From positions 1 to 39,931 of the IMG/VR virus record IMGVR_UViG_3300033571_010871: DNA of 39,931 nt; one strand, 5' to 3'. The translations under genes were made by a program, and so were the position numbers. The notes under the pieces were generated by a model. That model was not told the origin of the DNA, searched no databases, and was given only the letters and a program-made list of their open reading frames with translations. This stretch comes from a virus. Positions 1 through 15,931 of the stretch are shown here, in pieces; positions within the stretch are counted from its first letter, which is position 1, and each line of letters opens with the position of its first letter.

Positions 1-87
1 ATGATCCGCCTCTTGTCCATATTCCGCCGCACCCCGCAATCACGCGCGCCGCGTGTAGCCGTCGCATCGTTGGACGCCCGCCTTCGG
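1..87. repeat. Terminal direct repeat, left copy (circular overlap)
   Basis: Bases 1-87 are identical to 39845-39931. The repeat falls inside an open gene that starts at base 1 and at 39845. The simplest reading is an assembly overlap of a circular or circularly permuted molecule, as expected for headful packaging by a P22-type terminase, and not a physical end. Confidence 0.95.
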
Positions 88-192
88 GCGCGGGCAATGC
101 GGGTCTGCAACAGGGACGCGGAAAGCGTTGAACGATACGTGCGGCTGCATAGTGCGCTGGCACGACACCCAAAGGAATTCGCAGATGCTTGA
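1..192 (+). CDS. Small basic hypothetical protein (63 aa)
   Basis: I do not recognise this protein. It is strongly basic at its N-terminus (MIRLLSIFRR) and Arg/Ala-rich throughout, with no clear domain. In the circular map its ATG at 39845/1 overlaps the stop of the methyltransferase-like gene and has a GGGAGG site 7 bases upstream, so the start is well supported. It ends inside the start of the gapR-like gene (8-base overlap), which points to one co-translated early operon. A role in DNA binding is possible from the charge but is only inference. Confidence 0.6.
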   Translation: MIRLLSIFRRTPQSRAPRVAVASLDARLRARAMRVCNRDAESVERYVRLHSALARHPKEFADA

Positions 193-475
193 TGGTCGCA
201 TGAAAAACACCCCCGCCGATACCGCCGTTGCGGACAAGGCTCTGTCTGTGTCGGCAGAAGAATTGCGGCAATTCATCGAGCGGGCCGAAACCTTGGCAGC
301 CGAAAAGAGCGACATTGCCGGTCACGAAAAGGAACTGTTCGCAGAGGCCAAGGCGCGCGGATACGACACCAAGGCCATGCGCAAGATCATCGCCATACGC
401 AAGCGCAAGCCGGATGACGTGGCAGAGGAACAGGCTGTGATGGATCTATATCTGTCTGCGCTGGGGATGCGCTGA
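185..475 (+). CDS. GapR-like nucleoid-associated protein (DUF2312)
   Basis: 96 aa, the length usual for DUF2312. Residues about 18-96 match the family: an N-terminal helix with 'SAEELRQFIERAETL', then 'AEAKARGYD', 'MRKIIAIRK' and the C-terminal 'DLYLSALGM'. Cellular GapR (Caulobacter) binds overtwisted, AT-rich DNA ahead of forks and helps topoisomerases. The start at 185 has AAAGGA 9 bases upstream; a second ATG at 200 is possible. A phage copy next to replication genes may act on phage DNA topology or interfere with host GapR; that is inference. The family assignment is strong. Confidence 0.88.
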   Translation: MLDGRMKNTPADTAVADKALSVSAEELRQFIERAETLAAEKSDIAGHEKELFAEAKARGYDTKAMRKIIAIRKRKPDDVAEEQAVMDLYLSALGMR

Positions 476-477
476 TC

Positions 478-867
478 ATGAAGGCCCCCCGCGCATTGCC
501 CGCGCCAAGTGAGCACACCGAACAGGTGGCCTTTGTGCAGTGGTTTCGTCTGCAGTTCCCAGGGATTTTGGTGTTCTCGATCCCCAACGGTTCCTACCTT
601 GCGGGCGACATCGCAGCCCGCGCACGCCAGGTGGCACGGCTCAAGGCCGAGGGCATGGTAGCCGGGGTGCCTGACTTGGAGATACCCGAATGGGGCTGTT
701 ACGTGGAAATGAAGCGCCAGCGGGGCGGCAAGCTGTCGGCTGATCAGCAGCGGATACACGACGCCCTGCGGCGCGCTGGCAAGCGGGTGATCGTCGCCAA
801 GGGTTGGGAAGATGCTGCCGATCAGGTCCGCTCGTTCCGGCGGAAGCCTATGGAATTGTCGGCATGA
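478..867 (+). CDS. VRR-NUC domain nuclease
   Basis: 129 aa, one domain. The family pattern is visible: 'HTEQVAFVQWF' (helix with Glu), 'IPNGSY', 'GMVAGVPDLEIP' (catalytic Asp in PD), 'YVEMKRQRGGKLSADQQ' (ExK plus G-x-L-S-x-x-Q) and 'GKRVIVAKGW'. VRR-NUC proteins are PD-(D/E)XK nucleases; stand-alone phage forms cut branched DNA such as Holliday junctions in vitro. It follows the gapR-like gene by 2 bases and overlaps the next gene by 4 (ATGA). A likely role is resolving replication or packaging intermediates. Confidence 0.88.
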   Translation: MKAPRALPAPSEHTEQVAFVQWFRLQFPGILVFSIPNGSYLAGDIAARARQVARLKAEGMVAGVPDLEIPEWGCYVEMKRQRGGKLSADQQRIHDALRRAGKRVIVAKGWEDAADQVRSFRRKPMELSA

Positions 868-1148
868 CCCTGACCCCCGCCGATATTGCCGCCGCACAGG
901 CAATCCGATTCCCCGACGCCGGTATCCGTAAAATCGTCCGCGCCGTGTCAGAAGCAAGCGGCGTGGATATTGATAAAATCCTCAGCCCAAGCCGCAGGGC
1001 CGCAATCGTTATGGCCCGTGATCTGGTCTGCTACATCGCACACCGCGAAGGCTATTCGGTATCGACAATCGGTCGGTGCATTGGCGGGCGGGATCAATCA
1101 ACGGTTTTAACCGCCATTGCGCGCGAACAAGCGAGGCGCGGGGAATGA
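864..1148 (+). CDS. DnaA domain IV-like DNA-binding protein
   Basis: 94 aa. Residues about 38-90 resemble the C-terminal box-binding domain of DnaA: 'SPSRRAAIVMARDLVCYIAH' (basic loop and recognition scaffold) then 'IGRCIGGRDQSTVLTAI', close to the DnaA signature GGRDHSTV. There is no AAA+ part. Such short proteins occur in alphaproteobacterial phages. The ATG at 864 overlaps the VRR-NUC stop; longer upstream starts are inside that gene and unlikely. It may bind DnaA-box-like sites on host or phage DNA, or compete with host DnaA. The target is not visible. Confidence 0.8.
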   Translation: MTLTPADIAAAQAIRFPDAGIRKIVRAVSEASGVDIDKILSPSRRAAIVMARDLVCYIAHREGYSVSTIGRCIGGRDQSTVLTAIAREQARRGE

Positions 1149-1417
1149 CCCAAGACATGGACGCCGTTTTGAATGAAGTTTTTGCCAATGCGGGTTATTC
1201 GCCAAGGACTCGAAAGGAATATACTTACCCAAAAGCAAAAGAACTTGTCATTAATAGCCATGCTTGGCGTGAAGCGGTCGCCACTAAGCTTTTAGACGGA
1301 TACGGCGTTTATGAAATCGCAATTTGGCTTCAATGCGATTCTTCACATGTGCGGCGCGAAGTTGCCAGGCTGAGGAAAGACGGGTGGCTTCACAAGTGGT
1401 GGGGGCGCGGCGAATGA
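1145..1417 (+). CDS. Hypothetical protein with probable helix-turn-helix
   Basis: 90 aa. Residues about 46-80 ('LLDGYGVYEIAIWLQCDSS' followed by 'VRREVARLRKDG') read as a helix-turn-helix of the kind used by small phage DNA-binding proteins. No named family is recognised. ATGA overlaps at both ends tie it to the DnaA-like and initiator genes. By eye the sequence (1150-1350) is less GC-rich than its neighbours, which may mean recent acquisition. A role as replication accessory or regulator is inferred from position only. Confidence 0.7.
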   Translation: MTQDMDAVLNEVFANAGYSPRTRKEYTYPKAKELVINSHAWREAVATKLLDGYGVYEIAIWLQCDSSHVRREVARLRKDGWLHKWWGRGE

Positions 1418-2220
1418 GTGGAACAGTCAATATATCGCGCGCGATCTTCGATCATGAATTTTTCGCAAGCGAACCGATGACCGAGCGCGAGGCCTGGATA
1501 TGGCTGATTATGGAAGCGTCTTGGAGGCCTAGAAAGAAGCGGGCCGGTGACGTGATCGTTGACTTGGAGCGCGGGCAACTCGCGGCATCTGTGCGCTTCA
1601 TGGCGGCAGCTTGGAAATGGACGCCCGCCCGCGTGCAGAGGTTCATAAAGCGGCTTTCGGACCTGTCGATGATTGTGCCGAAAACCGATACAGGTGTGAC
1701 CGTCATAACCATCTGTAAATACAACGAATATCAGCCGCCGCCGAAAGCTGCCGATACAGGTCCGATACAGGACCGATACAGGTCCGATACAAACGAGAAA
1801 AAGGATGCAAGAAGGGAAGAAGGTAAAGAGGTATCTCCTGTCGGAGATACCCCCCCGCCCATCGACGAAATCGCGGCTTGCGTCTCGGCCTACAACGCCA
1901 CGGCAGATCGCGCCGGATGGCCGAAGGTGCAAACGGTAAGCAGGGCGCGGCGAGCGGCTCTAAGTCAAAGGCTTCGGGAGTGCGGTGGCGCTACGGGCTG
2001 GGAAGTTGCCCTAGCGAAGGCCGAAGCATCCGACTTTCTCAATGGCCGGACGGCAAAGCCCTTCACGGCAAGCTTTGACTTTCTGACCCAAGCAAAGTCA
2101 TTCACGAAACTCATGGAAGGCAACTATGACAACCGCATTGGCAATTCGAGCACCTCAAGACGAAGTGGAATGGTTGACGCATTCGCTGCCGTCGCTGCGC
2201 AGCGATCCGGCCATTCGTGA
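1414..2220 (+). CDS. Replisome organiser / O-like replication initiator
   Basis: 268 aa. The N-terminal part (about 5-110) looks like the winged-helix domain of phage replication-organiser proteins: 'ISRAIFDHEFF', 'EAWIWLIMEASW', 'LERGQLAASVRFMAAAW', 'VQRFIKRLSDLSMI', 'ITICKYNEYQ'. A low-complexity, charged linker follows (about 110-150), then a helical C-terminal part (about 150-225). The linker DNA holds four 11-bp iterons, a purine tract and a palindrome (see 1751-1851), as lambda O carries its own origin. The start at 1414 overlaps the previous stop. It overlaps the next gene by 95 bases. It probably binds the iterons and recruits the helicase loader; iteron binding is inference from the lambda layout. 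Confidence 0.8.
   Translation: MSGTVNISRAIFDHEFFASEPMTEREAWIWLIMEASWRPRKKRAGDVIVDLERGQLAASVRFMAAAWKWTPARVQRFIKRLSDLSMIVPKTDTGVTVITICKYNEYQPPPKAADTGPIQDRYRSDTNEKKDARREEGKEVSPVGDTPPPIDEIAACVSAYNATADRAGWPKVQTVSRARRAALSQRLRECGGATGWEVALAKAEASDFLNGRTAKPFTASFDFLTQAKSFTKLMEGNYDNRIGNSSTSRRSGMVDAFAAVAAQRSGHS
1751..1794 (+). repeat. Four 11-bp iterons (CCGATACAGGW) of a putative origin
   Basis: Units at 1751-1761, 1762-1772, 1773-1783 and 1784-1794 all begin CCGATACA in exact 11-bp register; the first three are CCGATACAGG plus T or A and the last diverges at its end. A fifth single copy lies at 1685-1695. The 11-bp period shifts the reading frame each time, so a protein repeat does not explain it. The period is close to one DNA turn, suiting protein binding on one face. 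Confidence 0.85.
1791..1851 (+). other. Purine-rich tract and 9-bp palindrome completing the putative replication origin
   Basis: After the iterons, 1791-1830 is almost all purine on the + strand. It is followed by a perfect inverted repeat, arms GGTATCTCC (1830-1838) and GGAGATACC (1843-1851) with loop TGTC. Iterons, an A-rich tract and then a palindrome, all within the initiator gene, is the layout of lambdoid origins. No experiment is implied. Confidence 0.7.
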
Positions 2221-2653
2221 AAGGGCCGCTCGAGTTGTTTCCCATCTGTCAGCGCCAGCGCAACAGGCTTGGACTATGGCGAGAATAGCGGCGCTTCTCA
2301 GCCCCTATTATGAGAAAGACCTGCCGCAAGCGGTTCGGGTTATGGAAGCCCAGGATTGGGCCGAGGCGCTTTCCGGGTATCCTCAATGGGCGATTGAAGG
2401 CGCTGTCCGATGGTGGAAGTCAGCCGAAAACCCAGATCGCCGCAAGCGCCCTTTCGAAGGTGATATTGTCGAAAGGTGCGATTTGGAAATGGGGGGCATC
2501 AAGGCCGCAAGCCTCTATCTCTCTTTGCCCCCGGTAACTAAAACCCAAGAGCCGCCGCGCGTTCTGCCCAGCCCTGAAAGGCGCGCGGAATTGGTCGCCG
2601 AAACGCAACGCATCATGAAGAATTTGACCGAAAGGATGACCGGTGGAAATTGA
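2126..2653 (+). CDS. Putative replication protein, possible helicase loader (P-like)
   Basis: 175 aa, not matched to a named family by eye. It is largely helical, with 'WAEALSGYPQWAIEGAVRWW' and 'RRKRPFEGDIVERCDLEM' in the middle; this pattern occurs in phage proteins that follow O-like genes. The ATG at 2126 lies 95 bases inside the initiator gene but has GGAAGG 5 bases upstream, so the long overlap looks real. With no helicase gene in the window, a loader of host DnaB is the obvious need at this position; the function is inferred from context. Confidence 0.65.
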   Translation: MTTALAIRAPQDEVEWLTHSLPSLRSDPAIRERAARVVSHLSAPAQQAWTMARIAALLSPYYEKDLPQAVRVMEAQDWAEALSGYPQWAIEGAVRWWKSAENPDRRKRPFEGDIVERCDLEMGGIKAASLYLSLPPVTKTQEPPRVLPSPERRAELVAETQRIMKNLTERMTGGN

Positions 2654-3167
2654 AGCTATCCCAACTGAGTATTCAGGCGTGACCTTTCGCTCCCGGCTCG
2701 AAGCAAAATGGGCGCAATTCTTTGACATGATCGGTGTCGAGTGGGAATACGAGCCTAAGCAGGTAAAGGGCTGGATACCTGACTTTCTGATCGCAGGGCA
2801 ATGGTTGGCCGAAGTTAAGCCGACCCCAATCACTGGCACCGGTGCGGCGCATCATGAGCCGTTTTCAAAGGCAATCCGAAACTTTGACACGCTCCTGCTT
2901 GGTGAAGGTCCAGGCGATGCGCTTGGCTTGGTTGTTCGGCGGCAAAGCGATGACAGTGTATTCGTCCGCTACCTCGTCGCGGATTTAGAGGATGGGCCTG
3001 CAAGATTGCATGTTTTCCCGTTCCTGCCGCGCGGCTTTCGGTCGGACCTTGCGATATTCTGGCGGGGGCTGGGAAATCAACCGGCGGCATGGCAACCGCC
3101 GCCTGCCCAATCTGTCGTTCTCGCATTTTGCGAGGCAGCCTTTGGTACTGATTGGAGGGCAGCATGA
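2643..3167 (+). CDS. PD-(D/E)XK-like endonuclease
   Basis: 174 aa. The first 70 residues carry a nuclease-like layout: 'TFRSRLEAKWAQFFD' (helix with Glu), 'WEYEPKQ', 'GWIPDFLI' (Asp) and 'WLAEVKP' (ExK). This combination is common in small phage proteins related to restriction-endonuclease-fold nucleases. The remainder is unassigned. The start is GTG at 2643, overlapping the previous stop by 11 bases, and the gene ends in an ATGA overlap with the next. A role in processing DNA during replication is likely; the substrate is unknown. Confidence 0.7.
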   Translation: MEIEAIPTEYSGVTFRSRLEAKWAQFFDMIGVEWEYEPKQVKGWIPDFLIAGQWLAEVKPTPITGTGAAHHEPFSKAIRNFDTLLLGEGPGDALGLVVRRQSDDSVFVRYLVADLEDGPARLHVFPFLPRGFRSDLAIFWRGLGNQPAAWQPPPAQSVVLAFCEAAFGTDWRAA

Positions 3168-3724
3168 CCATTCAAACCCGCACCATCGCCAATAAGCCCG
3201 ACCATGAAGCCGGACACATCAACCGCGTCACATTGCGCGCAGAACCATGGGACACACCACCGGAAGCCAAAAAGGATCACCCGCGCCCAACTGCCGGAAA
3301 GCTTGAAGCCGTATCCCTTCGCGCGCCCCAGGTCGCAAGGGTGCGCGCCCCATGCCCAGACAGGTTCGCATATTGGGATCAGGACTTGATTGCCGAACAA
3401 TGGCTGGCCCTGTGCCGACGTGAAGGACATCGGCCAATGCTGCCGCCCAGTTCGGCATTGCAAAGCGAAGCCGCAAGGCGCGGCGCGGAAACCCGAAAGC
3501 CGGGAACATCGCAGATCATGATTGATCTCCTGGAACGCTTGCGCCACGGCGATATCCGGCGCAGCGAGCTTCTAAGAAGCAGAGTTTCAGGAAACGCAAC
3601 GCTTCAGCGAAAGCGCGCCTTCGAATTCGGATGGATCAAGGGCGGCTCGCACCCGGATTCGCTGATCACGATCACGACAGAGGGATATGCGGCGCTGCAG
3701 GCAATGAGGCGGGGCCAGGCATGA
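3164..3724 (+). CDS. Hypothetical protein (186 aa)
   Basis: Not recognised. The first 60 residues are Pro/Arg-rich and probably disordered. The middle has 'EQWLALCRREGHRP', and the C-terminal part (about 105-180) is predicted helical with 'IMIDLLERLRHGDIRRSELL' and 'ITTEGYAALQAM', resembling a small winged-helix or HTH unit. The ATG at 3164 overlaps the previous stop and has GGAGGG 5 bases upstream, which decides this start over the in-frame TTG at 3152. Confidence 0.7.
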   Translation: MTIQTRTIANKPDHEAGHINRVTLRAEPWDTPPEAKKDHPRPTAGKLEAVSLRAPQVARVRAPCPDRFAYWDQDLIAEQWLALCRREGHRPMLPPSSALQSEAARRGAETRKPGTSQIMIDLLERLRHGDIRRSELLRSRVSGNATLQRKRAFEFGWIKGGSHPDSLITITTEGYAALQAMRRGQA

Positions 3725-3780
3725 TCGAAACAGCGCGCCAGAGGCACCCTACAGCGGCAAGTCGCAATCAGGATAGATAA
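3721..3780 (+). CDS. Possible 19-residue ORF or remnant
   Basis: An ATG at 3721 overlaps the previous stop (ATGA), like the other genes of this operon, but the frame closes after 19 codons, just before the AT-rich HNH-like gene. It may be a tiny coupled peptide or the stump of a gene displaced by that gene. Confidence 0.25.
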   Translation: MIETARQRHPTAASRNQDR

Positions 3781-3784
3781 ATAA

Positions 3785-4204
3785 ATGTTGGTGTACCGGA
3801 AAAACTTCACAGCGGAAGACTATTCATATAGGCGAATGGGGCGCGTTGGCGACCCTTGTGTTTATTGCGGACAATGTTCAAACTCTCTGGACCATATCCC
3901 ACCGCTTAGCGCTTACTCTAGGATGGATATGCAAGACAAAGACCATTGCAATCCTGTTACAGTTCCAGCTTGCGTGGAATGCAACTCTATTCTTAACGCG
4001 CATCCGGCGCTTACTATTACGGAACGCCGCAGTATTGTGAAAAATAAGCTTCGCAAGAAGTATCGGAAGTTTCTCAAAATGCCGCGATGGGATGAAAGTG
4101 AGCTGTCGGAAATGGACGAGCGCATGGCAGATGACATCAGGAGGGCTTCATACTTCGCAGAGCACATAAAGCAAAGGCTAGGTTTCTACAGGGGAAGAAA
4201 GTGA
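3785..4204 (+). CDS. HNH-like zinc-binding protein
   Basis: 139 aa. Two Cys pairs ('CVYCGQ' at about 26-29 and 'CVEC' at about 62-65) flank 'LDHIPP', the usual arrangement of HNH endonucleases with a structural zinc (D-H as part of the catalytic ββα motif). The C-terminal 60 residues are basic then acidic helices, perhaps for DNA binding. By eye the gene is clearly more AT-rich than its neighbours, has no ATGA overlap and a weak AGGA site, all consistent with a recently acquired mobile gene. It is the last rightward gene before the convergent region. Confidence 0.7.
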   Translation: MLVYRKNFTAEDYSYRRMGRVGDPCVYCGQCSNSLDHIPPLSAYSRMDMQDKDHCNPVTVPACVECNSILNAHPALTITERRSIVKNKLRKKYRKFLKMPRWDESELSEMDERMADDIRRASYFAEHIKQRLGFYRGRK

Positions 4205-4445
4205 AAACGAGAGAAGGGCATCAGGCGGCCATCCTACGAAGTTCTGCGGGGCATTTCATTGGAGGGACAGGGTATGAAGCGCAAGCGTAAGGTCGGGCAG
4301 GGCGGGCCACTGCAGGGTTTAGCCCCACTCCCCGGCAACGTATCTCAAGCCGCTGACTGGACGCTTGACTGCGGATTCCCCCTATGGCATCACCTAACAT
4401 GCAGGGGTGATCGCAGCAACCGCCAGCCAACGGCGGGTTTGAACG

Positions 4446-4475
4446 TGCAGCAGAGTGTTGACGCACTCTGCTGCA
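4446..4475. other. 12-bp perfect stem-loop
   Basis: Arms TGCAGCAGAGTG (4446-4457) and CACTCTGCTGCA (4464-4475), loop TTGACG. The right arm shares six bases with the hairpin at 4470-4490, so the two structures exclude each other. No U-tract follows, so a simple terminator is unlikely. Confidence 0.75.
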
Positions 4476-4490
4476 TAATTCCAATGCAGC
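4470..4490. repeat. Duplicated 21-bp hairpin element, copy 1
   Basis: Arms GCTGCAT and ATGCAGC (7-bp stem) around the loop AATTCCA. The identical 21 bases recur at 4598-4618. The exact identity of arms and loop in noncoding sequence suggests a protein or RNA target. Confidence 0.8.
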
Positions 4491-4509
4491 ATCGGAATAT
4501 CCCCGGCGA

Positions 4510-6531: not shown

Positions 6532-7044
6532 ATGACGGCACCTCTGGGAAATCAGTTCTGGCTCATGCGCAGTTCTGCAGGGCCAAAGCCCATATTCTCC
6601 ACGCCAGAAGGGCTGCTTGCAGCGTGCGAAGAATATTTCCAGTGGGTCGAAAGCAATCCGCTGCACGAGGCAAAGGCATTTGCCTACGAGGGCCGCGTCA
6701 CCGTCGAAAACCTTCCAAAAATGCGCGCAATGACCATCAAGGCGTTGTGCCTGTTTCTGGACATTGACGAAACAACATGGCGCGACTGGAAGGCAAACAG
6801 GCAAGATTTATCCCCTATCATCACGCGGACCGAAGCAATCATCTATGCCCAGAAGTTCGAAGGCGCGTCGGCCGGATTGCTGGTGGCAAACATCATTGCC
6901 CGCGACTTGGGGCTTGCCGAACGGCAAGAAATAACCGGCGCAGACGGCGGCCCAGTGCAAACGCAGGACGTGCCCGCTTCACAGCGCCTTGCGGAACGGC
7001 TGGCAGGAATTGAGCGGCGGATTACTGGCGGGGACAGCGAATGA
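6532..7044 (+). CDS. Terminase small subunit (P22 gp3-like)
   Basis: 170 aa. The central block 'STPEGLLAACEEYFQWVESN', 'MTIKALCLFLDIDETTWRDW' and 'IITRTEAIIYAQKFEGASAG' matches the gp3-like DNA-packaging family, as do 'LLVANIIARDLGL' and the polar C-terminal tail. The protein recognises the packaging site and feeds DNA to the large subunit. First gene of the late block; it overlaps the large-subunit gene by 4 bases. In P22 the pac site lies within this gene; here its position is unknown. Confidence 0.9.
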   Translation: MTAPLGNQFWLMRSSAGPKPIFSTPEGLLAACEEYFQWVESNPLHEAKAFAYEGRVTVENLPKMRAMTIKALCLFLDIDETTWRDWKANRQDLSPIITRTEAIIYAQKFEGASAGLLVANIIARDLGLAERQEITGADGGPVQTQDVPASQRLAERLAGIERRITGGDSE

Positions 7045-8399
7045 GGGCTGGCGCGTCAGTTGCGGAACGTCTGGCGCTATTGCCGGTGCCGGATCGGCAG
7101 GCCGCGCTTGCCGATCTATCGGAATCCGAAGTGGAGGCGCTGCTTTACGATTGGAGAGGATTCAACGCGCGCCCTGACCAGATTGCGCCGGAAGGCGAAT
7201 GGCTGATCTGGGCAATCGTCGCAGGCCGGGGATTTGGCAAGACACGATCCGGGGCGGAATGGGTGCGGGAACAGGTGAAAGCCGGAAAGCGCCGGATTGC
7301 CCTGATCGCGGAAACGCAGCGCGACCTTGAACAAGTGGTTGTTGAAGGCGACAGCGGGATTCTTGCTTGCTGCCCAAAGGATGAAATGCCGGTCTACACG
7401 AAAAAGCCGGTGAAGCTGGTATTCCCCAATGGCGCGATTGCCCAGGGTTACAACGGCACCGAACCGGATCAGCTTCGCGGGCCGCAGTTTGACGCAGCCT
7501 GGTGTGACGAACTGGCGAAGTGGGCACATGCCCGCGCGGCATGGGATCAGCTGCAATTTGGGCTGCGTCTTGGTGATGACCCGCGCGTGCTGGTTACGAC
7601 AACGCCGCGCCCGACCGAACTGATCAAGAGCATTGTTGCGGGGAATGAAGGTCCGGTTCACGTCACGCGGGGCCGGACTGCGGACAATATCGCAAACCTT
7701 GCCCCGTCTTTCGTCAAGAGCATTACCGAACGCTACGGGGGAACCCGTATGGGCAGGCAAGAACTCGAGGCGGAAATCCTTGGCGACCTTCCGGGCGCGC
7801 TGTGGTCGCTTTCGTCGCTTGATGCCTATCGACTGCGGGAAGCCCCGGAAATGGGGCGAATACTGGTGGCAGTTGACCCGGCAGTGACGGCGACGGAAGA
7901 CAGTGACGAGCATGGGATTATCGTTGGCGGTCTGTCTGCCGGGGAAAAGCGTGGGATTGTGTTGGAGGATGCCAGCTTGTCGGGCAGCCCCCGCGCATGG
8001 GCGCAACGGGCGGTGTCTGTCTACCGGTCATGGCAAGCGGATGGGATCGTGATTGAAGTCAACCAAGGTGGCGACATGGTGGCGCACACGCTGCGCACTG
8101 TTGATCCGACCGTAAGGATTATTGAGGTCAGGGCCAGCCGGGGTAAGCACGTTCGGGCGGAACCGATTGCATCGCGGTACGAACGGGGTGAGGTCGCGCA
8201 TGTCGGCAGTTTTGTCGAATTGGAAAATCAGATGACCCAAATGACCTTGAACGGTTATGAGGGGCCAAAATCGCCCGACAGGGTTGATGCGCTAGTCTGG
8301 TTGATGAGTGCGCTATTCCCTGCGGTTGCGGAACGACCGAAGGCACCGCCAATTCAAATTGCCCCGCGCCCGGCGCTTGGGGCGGGCCGTCGATTTTAG
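7041..8399 (+). CDS. Terminase large subunit
   Basis: 452 aa, close to P22 gp2 (499). ATPase: Walker A GRGFGKT at 62-68, Walker B-like 'FDAAWCDE' at 150-157 ending in the catalytic Glu, and the coupling motif 'VTTTPRPT' at 185-192. Nuclease: 'VAVDPAVTATEDSDE' at about 276-290 supplies the first metal-binding Asp (D279), with later acidic residues near 'SPDRVDALVWLMSALF' at the end. The enzyme translocates DNA into the prohead and makes the headful cut. It overlaps the small subunit by ATGA. Confidence 0.95.
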   Translation: MRAGASVAERLALLPVPDRQAALADLSESEVEALLYDWRGFNARPDQIAPEGEWLIWAIVAGRGFGKTRSGAEWVREQVKAGKRRIALIAETQRDLEQVVVEGDSGILACCPKDEMPVYTKKPVKLVFPNGAIAQGYNGTEPDQLRGPQFDAAWCDELAKWAHARAAWDQLQFGLRLGDDPRVLVTTTPRPTELIKSIVAGNEGPVHVTRGRTADNIANLAPSFVKSITERYGGTRMGRQELEAEILGDLPGALWSLSSLDAYRLREAPEMGRILVAVDPAVTATEDSDEHGIIVGGLSAGEKRGIVLEDASLSGSPRAWAQRAVSVYRSWQADGIVIEVNQGGDMVAHTLRTVDPTVRIIEVRASRGKHVRAEPIASRYERGEVAHVGSFVELENQMTQMTLNGYEGPKSPDRVDALVWLMSALFPAVAERPKAPPIQIAPRPALGAGRRF

Positions 8400-8429
8400 G
8401 GGTGGGGATAAATGGTGTCGGAGGTTTTG

Positions 8430-8624
8430 ATGCAGACTGACCCCAAAGGTATGGCGATATTCTATGACGCTATGATGGAATCGCTGGATAGCATCATTGA
8501 CGGCATGGCCCAAGAGTGGCGCGCCAGCGGTTTCAGTGAATGGCTTATTTCCCGGTGTGTCGCGGATTATTGGGCAGAAGTAAGGCAGAACATTGCGAGG
8601 GAATATAATGCCGCGCCAAAGTAA
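8430..8624 (+). CDS. Small acidic helical protein between terminase and portal
   Basis: 64 aa, unrecognised, mostly helical ('FYDAMMESLDSIIDGMAQEW'). The ATG at 8430 is preferred since GGAGG lies 5 bases upstream; an in-frame ATG at 8412 would give 70 aa. It ends 17 bases inside the portal gene. Small genes at this spot are usual in P22-like phages, but a function cannot be assigned. Confidence 0.6.
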   Translation: MQTDPKGMAIFYDAMMESLDSIIDGMAQEWRASGFSEWLISRCVADYWAEVRQNIAREYNAAPK

Positions 8625-10677
8625 AGAAGCCCGCCTGTCCGATCTGCACGCGCGCGCCCTTCAAGAATTTGACGATGCGTATTGCGCGACCCGAGAGGAC
8701 CGCGAAGCCGCAGCCCTGTCCCGCCGCTTTGTCCGCGTTCGCGGCGCGCAATGGCAATGGGATACGGACGGCGACTTTGAAAACAAGATGCGCATGGAGA
8801 TTGACCACATCGGCGGGGCAATCATGCGGATCAGGAACGAATACCGGAAGAATCGGATTGCCGCGTCATTCCTGCCCGCTGATGGCAGTGAAGCCGACGC
8901 GCTGTCGGATGCTCTGACATCGCGCTACCGGGCTGACACGCAGGACGCGCGAGGCAAGGAAGCGCGGGCGCTGGCGTTTGATGGCTCGCTTGAAGGCGGC
9001 TATGGCGGATTGCGGCTGCGAACGGAATATGAAGGCGAAGGACCGCAACAACGGATTTGCCTTGAGCCGGTGAACGATGCCGAGGCCACCCTATTCTTTG
9101 ATGTAAACGCCAAGCTGAAAGACAAGTCGGATGCAGGACATGCCTTCCTGCTGACGCCATGGGCGCGGCGAGCGTTTGTGGCAGAATATGGCGAAGAATG
9201 CGCGTCCTGGCCGATGGCATTGGTGGGTAAGTATCAATTCGGGTGGTTTGGCACCGGCACGGATTTTGTTTTCATCGCCGAATACTTTGTGAAGGAACAG
9301 GTCAACAAGACCTGGCGCGTTTTCAAGGGCGGGGTCGATGGGGAAGACCTTGAGGAATTTACCGAAGAGGAACTTGATGCCGACGAATTGGAGCGGCTGA
9401 AGGCAACTGGCTTCAAAGAGGTAGCCCCCCGCGTTGAAAAGGTCGGGCAGGTCCGCAAGTATGTGTTGAACGGCGCGAAGGTGCTGGAAGATGGCGTTGT
9501 CATTGCCGGGCCGGAAATCCCGCTGATCCCGCAGTATGGGCAGCGAACTGTCTTGGATCATGTGGAGCGGTTCAAGGGGCATGTTCTGCACGCAATGGAC
9601 GCGCAGATTCTTTACAATCTGCAAATCTCCAAGGTAGCAGAGACGGCGGCTGTAAGCGGTGTCAGAACGCCGATATTCCTTGCGGAACAGATTGCACCCT
9701 ATCAGGAACAGTGGAAAAACGGGCACAAGAACAATCCGGCGTTCTACACTATCCAGTCGATCAGCGATCAGAATGGCAATATCCAGCCTGCGGGGCCTGT
9801 CGGGTATTTGGAGCCGCCGGAAGTAGCGCCTGCGGTTGCAGCCCTTATCCAGATCATGCGGCAGGACGTTGCCGACCAGATGGGAAATCCCGAAAATGCG
9901 GAACAACTGCAGCCGGATCAATCGGGTGTTGCTTTGGACTTGGTGCAGGGCCGGATCGATATGCAGTCGTATGGCTACCTTGATGAGGCGGCGGACGCAG
10001 AGCGGCGGCTTGCGGAAGTATATCAGGGCATGGCGGCTGAGATTTACGTTGAAGCTGGCCGGAAGCTGAAAACGCTGTCGGAGGAAGGCAAGCGCGGCAC
10101 GGTGGAGATTGGCCGGAAAGTGCTGAACCCAAAGACCGGGGGGATTGAGAGCGAAATTGACTTTTCGCGGGCGCGGTTTGACGTTGAAGTCGATGTTGGC
10201 CCGACCAGCGCCAGCCGTCGCATGTCGATTGTGCGCACCATGTCAGCGCTGATGGGGCAGACGCAGGACCCGGAAACCAATCTTGTTATTGGCTACAAGA
10301 CGCTCGAGAATCTTGAAGCTGAAGGGATGCAGGACATCCGCGATTGGGCGCGCAGGAAGCTGCTGGCGCTTGGCGCGGCGAAGCCGACGAAAGAGGAACA
10401 GGCCGAGATTGACGCGGCGGCGGCACAGCAGCAGCCGCCTGACCCGAACGCCGTGCTGGCCGGGGCAATGGCACAGGAAGCACAGGCCAAGGCCGCCAAG
10501 GCCGTTGCCGACACTGCCAAGGCAGAAGCGCAGACACAGCTTACGCAGGCACAGACAGCCGAAACGCTGGCGGGCATACCCATAGCGCAGCAACGATCTG
10601 CGCTGGAAACCGCACAGGCAATCATGGCCGACATGCAGGAAACCACAACGCAAGGAATGCCCGATGCTGGACAATGA
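8608..10677 (+). CDS. Portal protein (P22 gp1-like)
   Basis: 689 aa, against 725 in P22. Recognisable portal features: 'RFVRVRGAQWQWD', 'IDHIGGAIMRIRNEYRKNR', 'FDGSLEGGYGGLRLRTEYE' in the N-terminal half; 'TVLDHVERFKGHVLHAMDAQ' in the middle; a long Ala/Gln-rich C-terminal helix (about 590-680), like the P22 barrel. The start at 8608 (MPRQSKEA) has GAGGG upstream. Twelve copies form the DNA entry vertex. It overlaps the scaffold gene by 14 bases. Confidence 0.93.
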   Translation: MPRQSKEARLSDLHARALQEFDDAYCATREDREAAALSRRFVRVRGAQWQWDTDGDFENKMRMEIDHIGGAIMRIRNEYRKNRIAASFLPADGSEADALSDALTSRYRADTQDARGKEARALAFDGSLEGGYGGLRLRTEYEGEGPQQRICLEPVNDAEATLFFDVNAKLKDKSDAGHAFLLTPWARRAFVAEYGEECASWPMALVGKYQFGWFGTGTDFVFIAEYFVKEQVNKTWRVFKGGVDGEDLEEFTEEELDADELERLKATGFKEVAPRVEKVGQVRKYVLNGAKVLEDGVVIAGPEIPLIPQYGQRTVLDHVERFKGHVLHAMDAQILYNLQISKVAETAAVSGVRTPIFLAEQIAPYQEQWKNGHKNNPAFYTIQSISDQNGNIQPAGPVGYLEPPEVAPAVAALIQIMRQDVADQMGNPENAEQLQPDQSGVALDLVQGRIDMQSYGYLDEAADAERRLAEVYQGMAAEIYVEAGRKLKTLSEEGKRGTVEIGRKVLNPKTGGIESEIDFSRARFDVEVDVGPTSASRRMSIVRTMSALMGQTQDPETNLVIGYKTLENLEAEGMQDIRDWARRKLLALGAAKPTKEEQAEIDAAAAQQQPPDPNAVLAGAMAQEAQAKAAKAVADTAKAEAQTQLTQAQTAETLAGIPIAQQRSALETAQAIMADMQETTTQGMPDAGQ

Positions 10678-11563
10678 ATCCCAAGCCGACGACCTGACGC
10701 CGGACGTTGATCCGCCGGAAGGTGAACCGCCGCAGGAGCCGGAAACTGATGATCCGCCGCCCGAAGCAGAGCTTGTCATCACGATTGGCGACGATGACGC
10801 TGGCGATGATGACGATCTGGGTGAGGAAATTGACACGTCCGGCATGGACGAAAAAGAGGCTAGGACGGTTCACAAGCTGCGTGACAATCTGCGGCAGAAG
10901 ATCAAAGAGGCCAAACAACTTGAGCGCAAGGCGCTGGCTGCGGAAGCGGCGCTTGCCGCGCGGGATGTAAAGCCGAAGATCGAGGAAAAGCCGTATCCCA
11001 AGCCGATTGATTACGGCTATGACGATGCGCTTCATGAAGCGGCGGTTCTGGAATGGACCGAAAACCAAGCCGCTGTGAAGGTGGAAAAGGCGAAACAGCA
11101 AGCCGCAATCACGGCGCGGACTGAAAAGCTGCAACAGCAGTTTGAAGCCTATACGGCAGGGAAGAAAACCTTGCGGGTGGCAGACTTTGACACGGCAGAA
11201 GCGGCAGTTATGGCCGATCTGTCAAACGAGCAACAGCAGGCGATTCTTGAATGCGCCACCGATCCTGCAAAGCTGGTCTATGCCTTGGGAAATTCACCGA
11301 AGGCGCGTAGGGAATTGGCGGCGATTGATGACCCGCGCCTTTTCGGTTTCCGGCTGGCAAAGATTGAAGGGGAGATCAAAGTGACACAGAAAACACCGCC
11401 GCCGGTCGAGACGCGGCTTTCGGGTGGGGCGGGTGCAGGCGCGTCTGGCGGGTCACTGGCGGCCCAACTTAAAGAAGCGGAAAGGCGCGCTGAAATCAAC
11501 GGCATTCGGACGGAAGTTATCAGGATCAAGGCGCAAGCAAAGGCGGCGGGGGTCAGGCTTTAA
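10664..11563 (+). CDS. Scaffolding protein (P22 gp8-like)
   Basis: 299 aa, against 303 in P22. The N-terminal 60 residues are extremely acidic and Pro-rich; the middle and C-terminal parts are charged helices and coiled coil ('VHKLRDNLRQKIKEAKQLER', 'VKVEKAKQQAAITARTEKLQ'), ending in a basic helix ('IRTEVIRIKAQAKAAG') like the coat-binding end of gp8. Position between portal and coat is the same as in P22. It directs prohead assembly and leaves before packaging. Assigned by order, length and composition. Confidence 0.85.
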   Translation: MLDNESQADDLTPDVDPPEGEPPQEPETDDPPPEAELVITIGDDDAGDDDDLGEEIDTSGMDEKEARTVHKLRDNLRQKIKEAKQLERKALAAEAALAARDVKPKIEEKPYPKPIDYGYDDALHEAAVLEWTENQAAVKVEKAKQQAAITARTEKLQQQFEAYTAGKKTLRVADFDTAEAAVMADLSNEQQQAILECATDPAKLVYALGNSPKARRELAAIDDPRLFGFRLAKIEGEIKVTQKTPPPVETRLSGGAGAGASGGSLAAQLKEAERRAEINGIRTEVIRIKAQAKAAGVRL

Positions 11564-11600
11564 CCGCCCTTTACAAAATAGCGCTACCGCCCTAATATAG

Positions 11601-11704
11601 TTGCCAAGGCTCCGTCTGACCTTATCAGGCGTGTATTCGGAAACGGCTCCAGGCTCCGTATTGCCTGTGTCTCACCCGTAATCGCAATACAGGAGCCTTG
11701 GCAA
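11601..11704 (+). promoter_or_regulatory. Structured leader of the coat gene; long-range stem covers the ribosome site
   Basis: TTGCCAAGGCTCC (11601-11613) is the exact complement of GGAGCCTTGGCAA (11692-11704), which contains the GGAG ribosome site and the A of the coat ATG. Inside lies a second stem, GTATTGC (11658-11664) with GCAATAC (11684-11690), and GGCTCC recurs three times. When folded the mRNA would hide the coat start. No known riboswitch class is recognised. Confidence 0.65.
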
Positions 11705-12993
11705 TGCCCAACGCATTTTCTAAACAAGAAACGGCCATGTTTGACAAAGTCCTTGAGGGCTTTTCGGATTCTATGGTCATGTCGAAAAACGTCACGATCA
11801 GCAGCCAAGGATCGCCGCAGACGTTTGAGCGTTCGCAGGGCGGCGCTGTCTGGCGTCCGATGCCGTACATCGCAACGGTTTTTGACGGTGTGGACCAAAC
11901 GTCCAACTTCAGAGACTACACGCAGCTTATGGTCCCGGCGACCATCGGCTTTCAAAAATCTGTGCCGGTTGCTCTGACTGCCGGTGAAGCGCGGGACAAA
12001 GACTACCAGTTGAACAACATGGCCAAAGCGGCGGTTCAGGGTCTGGGTGCGGCAATCAACCAATCGGTGCTGAGCGTTGTGGCAACGCAGGGGGCGCTTT
12101 TTGTCAAGCGCACGCCCGCCGCGACAGGCTACGATGATGTGGCACTGTGCGAAGCAGTGATGAATGAAACCGGCGTCCCGATTGGAGACCGCGTGATTGC
12201 GCTCAATACCCGCGATTACAACGCGATGGCCGGGAACCTGGCCGCACGCCAGACATTCAGCGGCGACGTTTCCGAAGCCTACAAAAAGGCGTCCATCGGC
12301 GATGTCGCCGGGTTTGACACCTTCAAGATGGACACCGGGCTGCGACTCGCGGCAGCGGTTCCCGGCGCTTCGGTTGTGGTCAACGGCGCAAACCAGCGGT
12401 ATGTGCCGAGGGCAACGTCAACTGCCTCCACTGGCGAAATCGCGCTTGTGGACAACCGCCAGCAAACCTTGACCATCACGGTCGGGGCTGGTGGTGCGCT
12501 GAAAGCGGGCGATCACTTCACAATCGCCGGGGTCAACGCGGTTCACCCGATTACGAAGATCGACACGGGGCAGCTCAAGACCTTCACCATCAAGGCAATC
12601 CTGACTGGCGGCGGTACGGCTGGCACAAACACCGTTTCGATCTCGCCCCCGATCATCGCGGCGGACTCGTCTCCGACTGCGGCGGAAAGCCAATACAAGA
12701 ACGTGACCGTGACCCCGGCCAACTCGGCTGTCATCACGTTCCTGAATACGGTGGCGGCAGGGATCAACCCGTTCTGGCACAAGTCCAGCATTGAACTGCT
12801 CCCGTCGCTCCCGGGCCAGAATACCGGCGGCTTGGAATTCATGCAGGCGTCTACCGACCAAGGCCTGACGATCCAGATGACGCGGCAAGGGGCAATCAAC
12901 GATCTCAGCGGCAAGTACCGCTGGGATTGCTGGTATGGCGTGGTCAACCTGAACCCGGAAATGAATGGCCTGATGATGTTCGGTCAAACCTGA
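11704..12993 (+). CDS. Major capsid protein (P22 gp5-like)
   Basis: 429 aa, almost the length of the P22 coat (430). Matches include 'MPNAFSKQETAMFDKVLEGF', 'QTFERSQGGAVWRPMPYIA', 'DVALCEAVMNETGVP', the I-domain region (about 220-340, rich in Thr/Gly: 'GALKAGDHFTIAGVNAVHPI') and the C-terminal 'YRWDCWYGVVNLNPEM'. HK97 fold with an inserted β-barrel. The start at 11704 is preferred to TTG 11698 because GGAG lies at 11692-11695. Expression is probably controlled by the leader structure. Confidence 0.94.
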   Translation: MPNAFSKQETAMFDKVLEGFSDSMVMSKNVTISSQGSPQTFERSQGGAVWRPMPYIATVFDGVDQTSNFRDYTQLMVPATIGFQKSVPVALTAGEARDKDYQLNNMAKAAVQGLGAAINQSVLSVVATQGALFVKRTPAATGYDDVALCEAVMNETGVPIGDRVIALNTRDYNAMAGNLAARQTFSGDVSEAYKKASIGDVAGFDTFKMDTGLRLAAAVPGASVVVNGANQRYVPRATSTASTGEIALVDNRQQTLTITVGAGGALKAGDHFTIAGVNAVHPITKIDTGQLKTFTIKAILTGGGTAGTNTVSISPPIIAADSSPTAAESQYKNVTVTPANSAVITFLNTVAAGINPFWHKSSIELLPSLPGQNTGGLEFMQASTDQGLTIQMTRQGAINDLSGKYRWDCWYGVVNLNPEMNGLMMFGQT

Positions 12994-13001
12994 TAACGGC
13001 G

Positions 13002-13026
13002 GGGGCGGCGAGTAAGCCGCCCCTTT
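13002..13026 (+). terminator. Hairpin after the coat gene, terminator-like
   Basis: Stem GGGGCGGC (13002-13009) with GCCGCCCC (13016-13023), loop GAGTAA, followed by TTT. It starts 9 bases after the coat stop. The short T-run suggests partial termination, which would make coat more abundant than the downstream tail genes. Confidence 0.5.
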
Positions 13027-13053
13027 CACCTCAAGCGGTATCGGGGTTGCACA

Positions 13054-13476
13054 ATGGCGGCATGGTCCAAAAGAGATTTGCTTGAGCAAGCCTACCTTGA
13101 AATAGGCAAGGCGTCGTATGACTTTGACCTGCAGCCGGAAGAACTGCAGTCCGGCCTGCGGGCGCTTGATGCTATGGTCGCCACTTGGGCAAACAAAGGC
13201 GTTCTGATCGGTTGGGCCGGTGGTGATGGGTTCGGCGATGTGGACGCGCTTTCCAATGTGCCGGAATACGCAATGGAAGCGATCTATCTCAATCTCGCCC
13301 TGCGCCTGGCACCGTCATTCGGCAAGGCGGTATCGCCGGACACGCGGGCTGCGGCCAAGAATGCTTTTGATATCGTGCTGTCGCGGTCGATTGTGCCGGG
13401 GGACAAGAGGATCACAGGTTATGCCGGTTCCGGCAATAGAAATGGAGTGACCGCATGGCCCGTATCTCTGACCTGA
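13054..13476 (+). CDS. Head completion / tail accessory protein (P22 gp4-like)
   Basis: 140 aa, against 166 in P22 gp4. 'SKRDLLEQAYLEIGKASYDF' then 'GLRALDAMVATWANKGVLIG' and 'AMEAIYLNLALRLAPSFGK' follow the gp4 helix pattern, with 'DTRAAAKNAFDIVLSR' at the end. In P22, twelve gp4 copies bind the portal and join it to the gp10 hub. The gene order, coat then this gene then a gp10-like gene, supports the call. Confidence 0.85.
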   Translation: MAAWSKRDLLEQAYLEIGKASYDFDLQPEELQSGLRALDAMVATWANKGVLIGWAGGDGFGDVDALSNVPEYAMEAIYLNLALRLAPSFGKAVSPDTRAAAKNAFDIVLSRSIVPGDKRITGYAGSGNRNGVTAWPVSLT

Positions 13477-13913
13477 CCCGCGCAACGGGGCCGATGGTTT
13501 CAAGTGATTTGATCGGGGGCTATCCCCAGGTCGCACAAGACGATCAGGCGTTCACTGCGGGGCAGCTTCTGGCCTTTGTGCAAGCCAACCTGACCAGCAA
13601 TTTGGCGCTTGCGCAGCAATTCGCATCCCCAAGCGCCACTGCTTTCAACGTCGCAATCGTATCGCTGGCCGTGACCCCCAACACCTGGTTGATCTTGACC
13701 CCGACCGGCACCTTTGCGGCTGGCACAATCACGCTTCCCGCGAATCCGATTGACGGGCAGGTAGTATCGGTCAACTGCACGCAGATTGTCACGACGCTGA
13801 CCGTAGCGGGGAACGGGCGGACAGTGACCGGCGCACCGACGACGCTGGCGGCAAACGCTTTTTTCGAGCTTCGCTATTCTGCCACGCTTTCTGCCTGGTT
13901 TAGAGCATCGTAA
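13455..13913 (+). CDS. Putative virion protein with C-terminal β domain (needle-like candidate)
   Basis: 152 aa. The N-terminal 55 residues are helical or extended; from about 70 the sequence is β-rich ('TWLILTPTGTFAAGTITLPA', 'GQVVSVNCTQ', 'TLTVAGNGRTVTGAP', 'FFELRYSATLSAWFRAS'), like the C-terminal tip domains of small phage fibre proteins. It lies between gp4- and gp10-like genes and overlaps the former by 22 bases. It could replace the P22 tail needle, which has no other candidate here; this is inference. Confidence 0.6.
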   Translation: MARISDLTRATGPMVSSDLIGGYPQVAQDDQAFTAGQLLAFVQANLTSNLALAQQFASPSATAFNVAIVSLAVTPNTWLILTPTGTFAAGTITLPANPIDGQVVSVNCTQIVTTLTVAGNGRTVTGAPTTLAANAFFELRYSATLSAWFRAS

Positions 13914-13917
13914 GTGC

Positions 13918-13945
13918 TTGATATGACGCAATGTCATGCTATTCT
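13918..13945 (+). promoter_or_regulatory. Sigma70-like promoter before the HNH-AP2 gene
   Basis: TTGATA (13918-13923) and TATTCT (13940-13945) are 16 bases apart. The spacer contains the symmetric TGAC-GCAAT-GTCA. It would let the HNH gene be expressed apart from late transcription, as is usual for mobile endonuclease genes. Confidence 0.5.
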
Positions 13946-14012
13946 AATGCGGCACGGGGAGGGCTTCGAAACCTCACCCGCGCCTAACCAATCAGATCAT
14001 GTGAGGATCATC

Positions 14013-14528
14013 ATGGCTTCCCGACAGATACGACCCATCCGGGTCGAAGGCAATATCGCTTACGTTCCGCTGACTCGGGGATATGAGGCAATTATCGACG
14101 CCGCAGACGTGCCATTAGTGGCCGAGCATTCATGGTTCTCCGTTGTGCAAGACCATGCCGTTTATGCGGTTCGGCGCGTGCCCGGTGTAACCGGGCGTGG
14201 TTCAAAGGTGTCAATGCATCGGCAGATCATGATGCCAGGCCAAACGCAGCAAGTGGATCACATTAACCTTAACGGGTTGGACAATCGCCGCGCAAACATG
14301 CGTCTGTGTTCTGCCGCAGAGAACGCAAGAAATCGGCGCAAAAGTGCGGCCAACACTTCGGGCCTCAAGGGGGTTTGCTGGAACAAAGCTTCGAAGAAGT
14401 GGCAGGCCGGGATTAGGTGTGACGGCAAGACATTCCACTTGGGCCTTTACGATACACCTGATGATGCCCACGCAGCTTACGCCAAGGCAAGCGCTGCGAG
14501 GCACGGCGATTTCGGGAGGGTGGCATAA
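14013..14528 (+). CDS. HNH endonuclease with AP2 domain (copy 1)
   Basis: 171 aa. N-terminal part 'IRPIRVEGNIAYVPLTRGYE'; HNH core 'SMHRQIMM...QQVDHINLNG' with 'NRRANMRLCSAAENARNRRK' (about 68-110); C-terminal AP2 DNA-binding domain 'GLKGVCWNKASKKWQAGIR' to 'LGLYDTPDDAHAAYAKA' (about 115-165). This is a free-standing homing-type endonuclease. GAGGAT precedes the ATG at 14013. It separates the gp4/needle genes from gp10 and is related to the leftward copy at 22289-22798. The gp10-like gene starts at its stop codon (TAATG). Confidence 0.9.
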   Translation: MASRQIRPIRVEGNIAYVPLTRGYEAIIDAADVPLVAEHSWFSVVQDHAVYAVRRVPGVTGRGSKVSMHRQIMMPGQTQQVDHINLNGLDNRRANMRLCSAAENARNRRKSAANTSGLKGVCWNKASKKWQAGIRCDGKTFHLGLYDTPDDAHAAYAKASAARHGDFGRVA

Positions 14529-15931
14529 TGACGGCAATCCCAATTCTCAGCGGGATTGCAGCCGACGGCGCGGACTTTGCCACGTCTTTCCCGATGAACC
14601 TTGTTCCTGTCGCAAAGCAAACGGGCATTTCAGAGGGGTTTCTTCGCCCGGCTGAGGGCATTATCACGCTTGCGGACGGCGGCGGCGCAGGGCGGGGCGG
14701 CACGCAATGGCGCAGCGAGCAATACAGGGTCATCGGCAACTCTTTTGTAAAGGTAGCGCAGAACGGAACCATTACATCGTATGGGCCGATTGATGGCTTG
14801 GACTTTTGCACCTTCACGGCCAGCTTCGATTATCTGGCGATCAACGGCGGCGGTAAGCTTTACCTGTTCAACGGAGCGACGCTGACACAAGTTACGGATG
14901 TTGATCTCGGCACATCGCTGGATGTGGAATGGATCAACGGCTATTTCTTTTCGACCGATGGGCAGTCTATCGTCAATAGTTCGCTGCTGGACCCGTTTTC
15001 GTGGAACTCTTTGGATTATGCCTCAAGCGAGGCAAGCCCAGACCCCGTTCTGGCATTGCAGGCAATCCGCAACGAGCTGTACGCGGTGAACCGGAGCACA
15101 ATCGAGGTTTTCGGCGCGGTATCAAACCCCGGAAGCGGATTCCCCTTCCAGCGGATACAGGGCGCGCAGATCATGAAAGGCGCGGTCGGGTCGCGCGCCT
15201 GCACGGTCTTTGCGCAGACGCTGGCATTCCTGGGCGGGGGCGAGAATGACCCCCCCGGCGTCTGGATTGCGTCTGGCGGGACGGCGGAACGGCTTTCCAC
15301 CCGCGATATCGAAAACATTCTTCGCCAGTATAGTGAGACGCAGATTGCCAGTGCCGTTCTGGAAAGCCGCGTGGACCGGGTGCACGAGTTTCTTTATGTG
15401 CATTTGCCGGATCAAACATTGGTATTCGACGCAGCGGGAACAAAGGCTGCGGGTTCGCCGGTCTGGTTTATTCTGCGGTCGGGTGCGATACCCGGCGGAT
15501 ACCGGGCGCGCGGGTTTGTCTGGTGCTATGGCCGGTGGAACGTCGCGGACCCGTTCGGGACAAAGATCGGCTATCTGTCGGATGATGTCGGGTCGCACTA
15601 TGGCGATGTCGTTATTTGGCAATTTGCAACACCGGTCATTTATGGGGAAGGTCGCGGGGTCCAGGTGCATGAATTGGAGCTTGTCGCCCTGGCAGGGACT
15701 ATTGCGATTGGCGATGATCCGGTCATTTCCGCCGAATACAGCACAGATGGCGCGGTGTGGTCGCAACCCAAGTATGTTCGGGCGGGACGCAGGGGCGAAC
15801 GCAACAAGAGGCTAGTTTGGACGCGGCAGGGGCAATTCCGGCACTGGCGGGTCTATAGGTTCGGCGGCGACAGCCGGGCGCACTTGGCATTTGCACGGCT
15901 TGAGGCCCAGATGGAAGGGCTTGCGCTATGA
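14528..15931 (+). CDS. Packaged DNA stabilisation / tail hub protein (P22 gp10-like)
   Basis: 467 aa, against 472 in P22. Family-like blocks are 'NLVPVAKQTGISEGFLRPAE', 'FTASFDYLAINGGGKLYLFN', 'FFSTDGQSIVNSSLLDPFSW', 'LYAVNRSTIEVFGAVSNPGS' and 'GERNKRLVWTRQGQFRHWRV', a β-propeller-like repeat pattern. Six copies form the tail hub under the gp4 ring and hold DNA in. The ATG overlaps the HNH gene's stop (TAATG), so the HNH gene has been fitted in without breaking the operon. Confidence 0.9.
   Translation: MTAIPILSGIAADGADFATSFPMNLVPVAKQTGISEGFLRPAEGIITLADGGGAGRGGTQWRSEQYRVIGNSFVKVAQNGTITSYGPIDGLDFCTFTASFDYLAINGGGKLYLFNGATLTQVTDVDLGTSLDVEWINGYFFSTDGQSIVNSSLLDPFSWNSLDYASSEASPDPVLALQAIRNELYAVNRSTIEVFGAVSNPGSGFPFQRIQGAQIMKGAVGSRACTVFAQTLAFLGGGENDPPGVWIASGGTAERLSTRDIENILRQYSETQIASAVLESRVDRVHEFLYVHLPDQTLVFDAAGTKAAGSPVWFILRSGAIPGGYRARGFVWCYGRWNVADPFGTKIGYLSDDVGSHYGDVVIWQFATPVIYGEGRGVQVHELELVALAGTIAIGDDPVISAEYSTDGAVWSQPKYVRAGRRGERNKRLVWTRQGQFRHWRVYRFGGDSRAHLAFARLEAQMEGLAL

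Follow-up and report, generated by a model that had tools for sequence, protein, structure and literature searches.

An iteron array and hairpin inside a DnaD-like initiator gene form a probable phage replication origin, in which the repeat word changes jointly with the recognition helix

The placement of a replication origin within the gene of its own initiator has been described for phages and plasmids of several kinds. In lambda, the origin is found within the O gene and consists of iterons and A+T-rich DNA (PMC5043065), and in SPP1 oriL lies within gene 38 (PMC6316719). The RepA_N plasmids carry Rep boxes in the linker-coding part of rep, the product of which has a DnaD-like N-domain (PMC5703833), and in repABC plasmids the origin is located within repC, without iterons (PMC3155836). 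Origins inside initiator genes were known beforehand, and the locus described here is no new principle. In this study, we have analyzed a stretch of viral DNA of 39,931 bp (hereafter the window) together with the relatives of its initiator gene. Judging from sequence, positions 1685-1851 are very probably a phage replication origin, or the core of one, that lies inside the gene of its own initiator and would be bound by it.

As in oriLambda, the putative origin occupies a central part of the initiator gene, the next gene overlaps, and the order read in it by the initial annotation (iterons, A/purine-rich tract, palindrome) is present at 1685-1851. However, the lambda iterons are imperfect inverted repeats of about 18-19 bp placed 20-24 bp apart (PMC5043065), whereas those of the window are 11-bp direct repeats, and the window differs further by an iteron placed within the codons of the wing and by a constant element before the array. 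The proteins differ as well: lambda O matches PF04492 (Phage_rep_O) at 5.7e-36, whereas a Pfam search of the window protein, up to E 0.1, returned neither PF04492 nor PF06970 (RepA_N), and the window N-domain profile misses lambda O. The description of the initiator as "O-like" holds for the origin-like array in its gene, but not for the N-domain, which is DnaD-like (phrog_35955/2514), nor for the iterons, which are not of the lambda type. Because the iteron type and the N-domain family differ, we do not consider the window a member of the oriLambda group; its origin would most likely work like a lambda-type origin all the same.

Several other systems share part of this arrangement. The RepA_N initiators (pSK41, pTZ2162) have a DnaD-like winged-helix N-domain, central sites in rep and a host-specific C-domain (PMC5703833), but the PF06970 match is absent from the window protein. 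SPP1 gp38/oriL and the lactococcal Tuc2009 Rep likewise combine direct repeats with an AT-rich element in the gene of the origin-binding protein (PMC6316719), and the Tuc2009 record is annotated "contains origin of replication"; Tuc2009 Rep, however, is unmatched by the window N-domain profile. The orf46 product of Staphylococcus phage PVL belongs to the same N-domain family (hmmsearch 5e-39) and its gene has short direct repeats in the linker, but with another word and another C-domain (DnaB_2, PF07261). The repABC plasmids of alphaproteobacteria share both the origin inside the initiator gene and the host group (PMC3155836), and the DnaD-like phage initiators (phrog_35955 / 2514 / 186) share the winged-helix N-domain and the linker iterons in helical register. 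Since the layout is known outside lambdoids, in SPP1, Tuc2009, RepA_N plasmids and repABC, its occurrence in a phage of an alphaproteobacterium need cause no surprise on its own.

Features of the putative origin and its surroundings, with positions in the window
Feature	Position	Strand	Remarks
Initiator gene	1414..2220	+	268 aa; DnaD-like winged-helix N-domain (residues 1-107), linker, C-domain (about 152-244)
Recognition-helix codons	1624..1662	+	residues 71-83 (AF2 model); residue 75 is Q
Outlying iteron CCGATACAGG	1685..1694	+	with flanking bases encodes wing-tip T-D-T-G (91-94)
Constant element ATAACCATCTGTAAATACAACGAATATCAG	1705..1734	+	codes ITICKYNEYQ; weakly paired, strong synonymous-codon conservation in relatives
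Iteron 1 CCGATACAGGT	1751..1761	+	
Iteron 2 CCGATACAGGA	1762..1772	+	
Iteron 3 CCGATACAGGT	1773..1783	+	
Truncated iteron 4 CCGATACA (then AAC)	1784..1791	+	
Purine/A-rich tract	1791..1829	+	candidate unwinding element; family-wide stability trough at +70..+100
Putative origin hairpin GGTATCTCC-TGTC-GGAGATACC	1830..1851	+	perfect 9-bp inverted repeat, 4-nt loop closed by C-G
Initiator C-domain	1867..2145	+	PHROG matches, AF2 model; presumed contact to helicase or loader
Partner gene	2126..2653	+	175 aa; overlaps initiator 3' end; presumed helicase loader

The two halves of the initiator match different families. Residues 1-130 match the PHROG profiles of DnaD-like phage initiators (phrog_35955, 6.7e-43; phrog_2514, 9e-16; phrog_186, 6e-7), and the remainder matches phrog_10469, phrog_345 and phrog_19658, which are initiator C-domain families. 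In the AlphaFold2 (AF2) model (pLDDT 82.9) the winged helix is confident, with wing strands at residues 87-92 and 95-100, the linker (about 111-150) is disordered and the C-domain is helical. Foldseek placed the RepA structure 4pt7 at rank 9 (E 0.07), a weak match that generic winged helices equal in score; these winged-helix matches being generic, we draw no conclusion from them as to a RepA_N or lambda O fold for the N-domain.

Exact copies of the word CCGATACAGG are confined to four places in the window: 1685, 1751, 1762 and 1773. The initial annotation had reported four copies of CCGATACAGGW in 11-bp register (1751-1794) and a further one at 1685; three of the four are complete, the fourth, at 1784, is truncated, and the distant copy is exact. 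The latter lies 66 bp upstream of the tandem array, that is 6 x 11 bp, and is therefore in phase with it. Within the gene, CCGATACA is found five times, against 0.37 expected when synonymous codons are permuted. The best 22 bp of self-match at lag 11 (20/22) was equalled in 2/2000 synonymous-codon shuffles, a result that is unchanged when the maximum is taken over lags 5-30. The iteron core, G-ATA-CA, is not palindromic and the iterons are 11-bp direct repeats. The same annotation was right that the repeat period breaks the reading frame: a period of 11 bp passes through all three frames, so that repetition in the protein is no explanation for the array.

By scanning viral contigs and GTDB genomes, we collected 280 genes that encode this N-domain, of which 169 are non-redundant; their sources include phages and prophages of Rhodobacterales, Hyphomicrobiales, Bacteroidota, Listeria, Vibrio and Staphylococcus. 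Over the 110 nt downstream of the conserved CKYxEYQ codons (168 non-redundant genes), the best self-similarity lag was 11 in 99/168 genes and 11, 12, 22, 23 or 24, lags built from 11- and 12-bp steps, in 145/168, against 26/168 and no peak in a control segment of the same genes; the 12-bp lag is rarer than 11, even though it keeps the frame. The words themselves differ between relatives, and most fit G-NNN-C(A) (GATACA, GGGACA, GACGCA, GAGACA, GAGGCA, GGCACA); the family as a whole shows about 20 different 3-bp words, all set on the same scaffold. GGGACA is the word of the array in pCB2047-A, which infects Sulfitobacter sp. CB2047. With the end of YQ as reference, the wing codons hold copies at about -72, -60 and -48, and the linker holds them at +18, +29/30, +40..42 and +51..53. 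With copy positions fixed and words differing, what the family conserves is the geometry, not the word. Loss of the iterons from near relatives with the same initiator had been named as the observation that would speak against an origin; the relatives keep the array.

The joint change of iterons and winged-helix residues, predicted at the outset, is also seen. For 100 genes, with the word taken solely from the linker, mutual information with the word was highest for residue 92, followed by residue 75 in the recognition helix. The signal of residues 92 and 93 has to be discounted as partly mechanical, since the wing iteron encodes these residues, and residue 75 is the top position among those not encoded by an iteron. 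It corresponds to the word as follows: Q goes with ATA in 5/5 genes, D with GGA in 13/20, R with ACG in 14/15 and with GCA in 6/6, and E with AGA in 17/18 and with AGG in 7/8. When pairs matched for identity are compared, the ten positions whose change follows that of the word most closely (75, 72, 67, 60, 71, 81, 70, 82, 78 and 74) all fall within residues 60-82, the helix-turn-helix (HTH). A tree of the N-domain, built from the part that precedes the HTH, has 51 changes of the word and 30 of residue 75. Tree-independent pairs on supported branches, summed over four words, show residue 75 moving with the word in about 10.8 cases, against it in 0 and without difference in about 5.2, no single word reaching significance because the supported pairs are few. 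The sister loci L003 (GGA, D) and L069 (ACG, R) are a clear example of joint change. We read these data as the coevolution of a helix that would bind DNA with the site that it would bind.

The wing is involved in another way. In 86/100 genes, the DNA that codes for the wing contains the word of that same gene, where 6 would be expected if words were swapped between genes. In the window this copy is ACC GAT ACA GGT, which spells T91-D-T-G94, the tip of the wing in the AF2 model. As the word fills exactly two wing codons, a change of word rewrites two wing residues. The wing may tolerate this rewriting since its loop is free, or it may read DNA with the rewritten residues.

Between the wing iteron and the linker iterons stands NTAACYATNTGTAAWTACGACGAATATCAG (window 1705-1734), whose codon usage in the relatives is strongly constrained. 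At one position, ATA is used for 119/122 Ile codons and GTA for 36/37 Val codons, while elsewhere in the same genes ATA makes up 27% of Ile codons and GTA 16% of Val codons; at neighboring codons, in a first smaller set, TGT was found in 65/87 (28 expected) and TAT in 76/87 (36 expected). A degenerate form of the element has 120 matches in viral contigs, 119 of them within this initiator gene family, and we accordingly rejected the idea of a widespread site. Family-wide (165 genes), troughs of duplex stability flank the linker array, the constant element and the purine tract after the iterons being the least stable parts, and the trough at the constant element is most marked in G+C-rich phages. 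Candidate roles for this element are an unwinding element or a strand-specific single-strand site, the latter having a parallel, in principle, in the DnaD recognition element of Bacillus oriC (PMC10201434).

To the right of the array, the purine-rich tract and the perfect 9-bp palindrome of the initial annotation are both found, the latter as an inverted repeat with a TGTC loop. Purines make up 36/40 positions in 1791-1830, a richness reached by about 5 per 100,000 window 40-mers, and the A+T content of this segment is only 60%, against 41% window-wide. Counting stems 50-200 nt after the YQ codons, we found perfect stems of at least 6 bp in 82/168 relatives' genes where 15 would be expected; a control segment gave 20 for an expectation of 19.5. 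About half of the genes are without a detectable perfect hairpin. The loops are more uniform than the stems: 60/72 family tetraloops have the form TNN[C/A], against 27/229 background loops in the same loci, and the loop is closed by C-G in 61/72 family tetraloops, with no closing preference elsewhere in those loci. There are 50 different 5' arms among them. Distinct arms with a shared loop type indicate that pairing and loop are kept while the arm sequence is not. The orientation of the tetraloop matches gene direction. An intrinsic terminator was considered and rejected, as T makes up 18.5% of the sequence on the 3' side of these hairpins and T runs are absent. The hairpin is also kept, by eye, in genes that share the window C-domain ("EDTNVSLS" codons) behind different N-domains; in loci L008-L040 the window C-domain stands behind YdaU/DUF1376-like and other N-domains and the TNVSLS hairpin codons are retained. 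The origin palindromes of lambda (L438, about 660-695) and P22 (L441, 1470-1490) have the loops TGGC and TAAA, both C-G-closed, the arms of the lambda palindrome having two mismatches, and a tetraloop hairpin of the same type is found at the same place in SPN9CC, Ab31 and Pmp10 (TAAC). Such a hairpin is not universal in lambda/P22-type O genes, as only a few have it among 25 non-redundant linkers.

The initiator gene appears to be assembled from exchangeable parts. The window C-domain, whose matching PHROG families also match P22 gp18, is found behind several unrelated N-domains, and this N-domain and its array precede different C-domains. In Vibrio phage 1.276.O (L155, 1501-2469), this DnaD-like N-domain with its own array is joined to a C-domain that shares 50% identity with the lambda O C-domain over 82 aa, which, from sequence, may be a natural swap of the origin cassette under a lambda-like loader contact. 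Given this fusion and the P22 gp18-matching C-domain families, the layout is better described as modular than as ancient or convergent. At least 28 relatives have a homolog of the partner gene at the corresponding position, downstream of initiators with different N- and C-domains. We presume from gene position and order that the product of the partner gene is the helicase loader. Its model is confident (pLDDT 94.5); Foldseek and VIA-align gave no match to a solved structure, a PDB sequence search returned nothing firm, and the matches in BFVD were uncharacterized phage proteins with one weak "replisome organizer". For a reading of the partner as lambda P these searches gave nothing firm, and no known loader matched it in sequence or fold.

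The neighborhood holds further genes for DNA-binding proteins. One gene ahead of the initiator, 864-1148 encodes a 94-aa protein that consists of DnaA domain IV only (Bac_DnaA_C, 3e-16), with homologs in about 21 related loci, yet the window has no excess of DnaA boxes (15, against 14.7 expected). Upstream of the initiator, 185-475 encodes a GapR-like DNA-binding protein (PF10073, 2.6e-28) with homologs in about 23 related loci. The head module at 7041-15931 is that of a P22-like podovirus (terminase, portal phrog_156, scaffold phrog_648, major head phrog_283, Hc3 closure phrog_578).

From the elements, their conservation, their spacing and their joint change with the helix, we infer how binding, opening, helicase loading and initiation might proceed. 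Protomers of the initiator would line up on one face of the DNA, one for each helical turn, with their winged-helix N-domains bound to the 11-bp direct repeats (core G-ATA-C-A). The resulting initiator filament would strain the DNA, and the weakly paired segments 1705-1734 and/or 1791-1829 would open. The C-domain, presumed to contact the helicase or its loader, would then bring in the host replicative helicase together with the overlapping partner protein (2126-2653), and the hairpin at the right end could be a further origin element. The GC skew of the window has no clear switch at 1.8 kb and is uninformative.

A different reading of the repeats is that they are operators for repression of the gene by its own product, or for sensing of transcription, with replication starting elsewhere. 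Winged-helix proteins often autoregulate, CRP-type regulators are the best fold matches of the initiator in VIA-align, and many relatives have copies further upstream in the gene (-72, -60, -48). Yet the sites lie 270-380 bp inside the gene, a promoter scan of 1-4500 found nothing near the putative origin, and weakly paired DNA with a hairpin, a C-domain of an initiator family and a conserved overlapping partner together reproduce the order of known phage origins, all of which makes the operator reading improbable.

Even less credit is due to the idea that repeats and hairpin are junctions for recombination between N- and C-domain modules, with no role in replication. It would fit the shuffling of domains (one C-domain behind several N-domains, the lambda-O C-domain behind this N-domain) and the position of the hairpin at the module border, but the words differ between relatives and hence offer no shared homology, the hairpin arms have no common sequence (50 distinct), and neither joint change with the recognition helix nor a strict helical register is expected of junctions. 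Selection on a repetitive charged linker of the protein, rather than on DNA, is the least probable of the explanations. The linkers of such proteins are indeed disordered; but the frame shifts at each 11-bp copy, synonymous shuffles match the observed periodicity in only 2/2000, the 12-bp lag is rarer than 11 despite keeping the frame, and 86/100 genes repeat the word in the wing. We regard this explanation as already refuted, barring a fuller codon-usage correction that removed the periodicity. The replication origin is thus the reading that we retain.

What is new here is the fixed geometry, the correspondence between helix and word, the overlap with the wing, the constant element and the tetraloop rule. 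In the literature searched, which included few subscription papers, we found no description of an 11-bp scaffold with a changing 3-bp word, of the wing copy, of the constant element or of the tetraloop rule, and we make no claim of priority. A more tentative proposal, to which we give slightly less than even weight, is that of a self-referential origin, in which the iteron in the wing codons would be a working site, the constant element a second, sequence-recognized site for unwinding or strand loading, and the C(TNN[C/A])G hairpin an origin part shared by phages with lambda-like layouts. If this is true, the DNA read by the initiator would also spell the wing tip that may read it, and a switch of specificity would alter the site together with the wing in a single step, residue 75 changing as their partner.

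In conclusion, our results address the open question of how phages switch the specificity of their origin and yet keep replicating. The family offers many natural solutions, which can be tested by exchanging the 3-bp word together with one or few residues. The same features provide a sequence rule for locating origins in unannotated phages and prophages.
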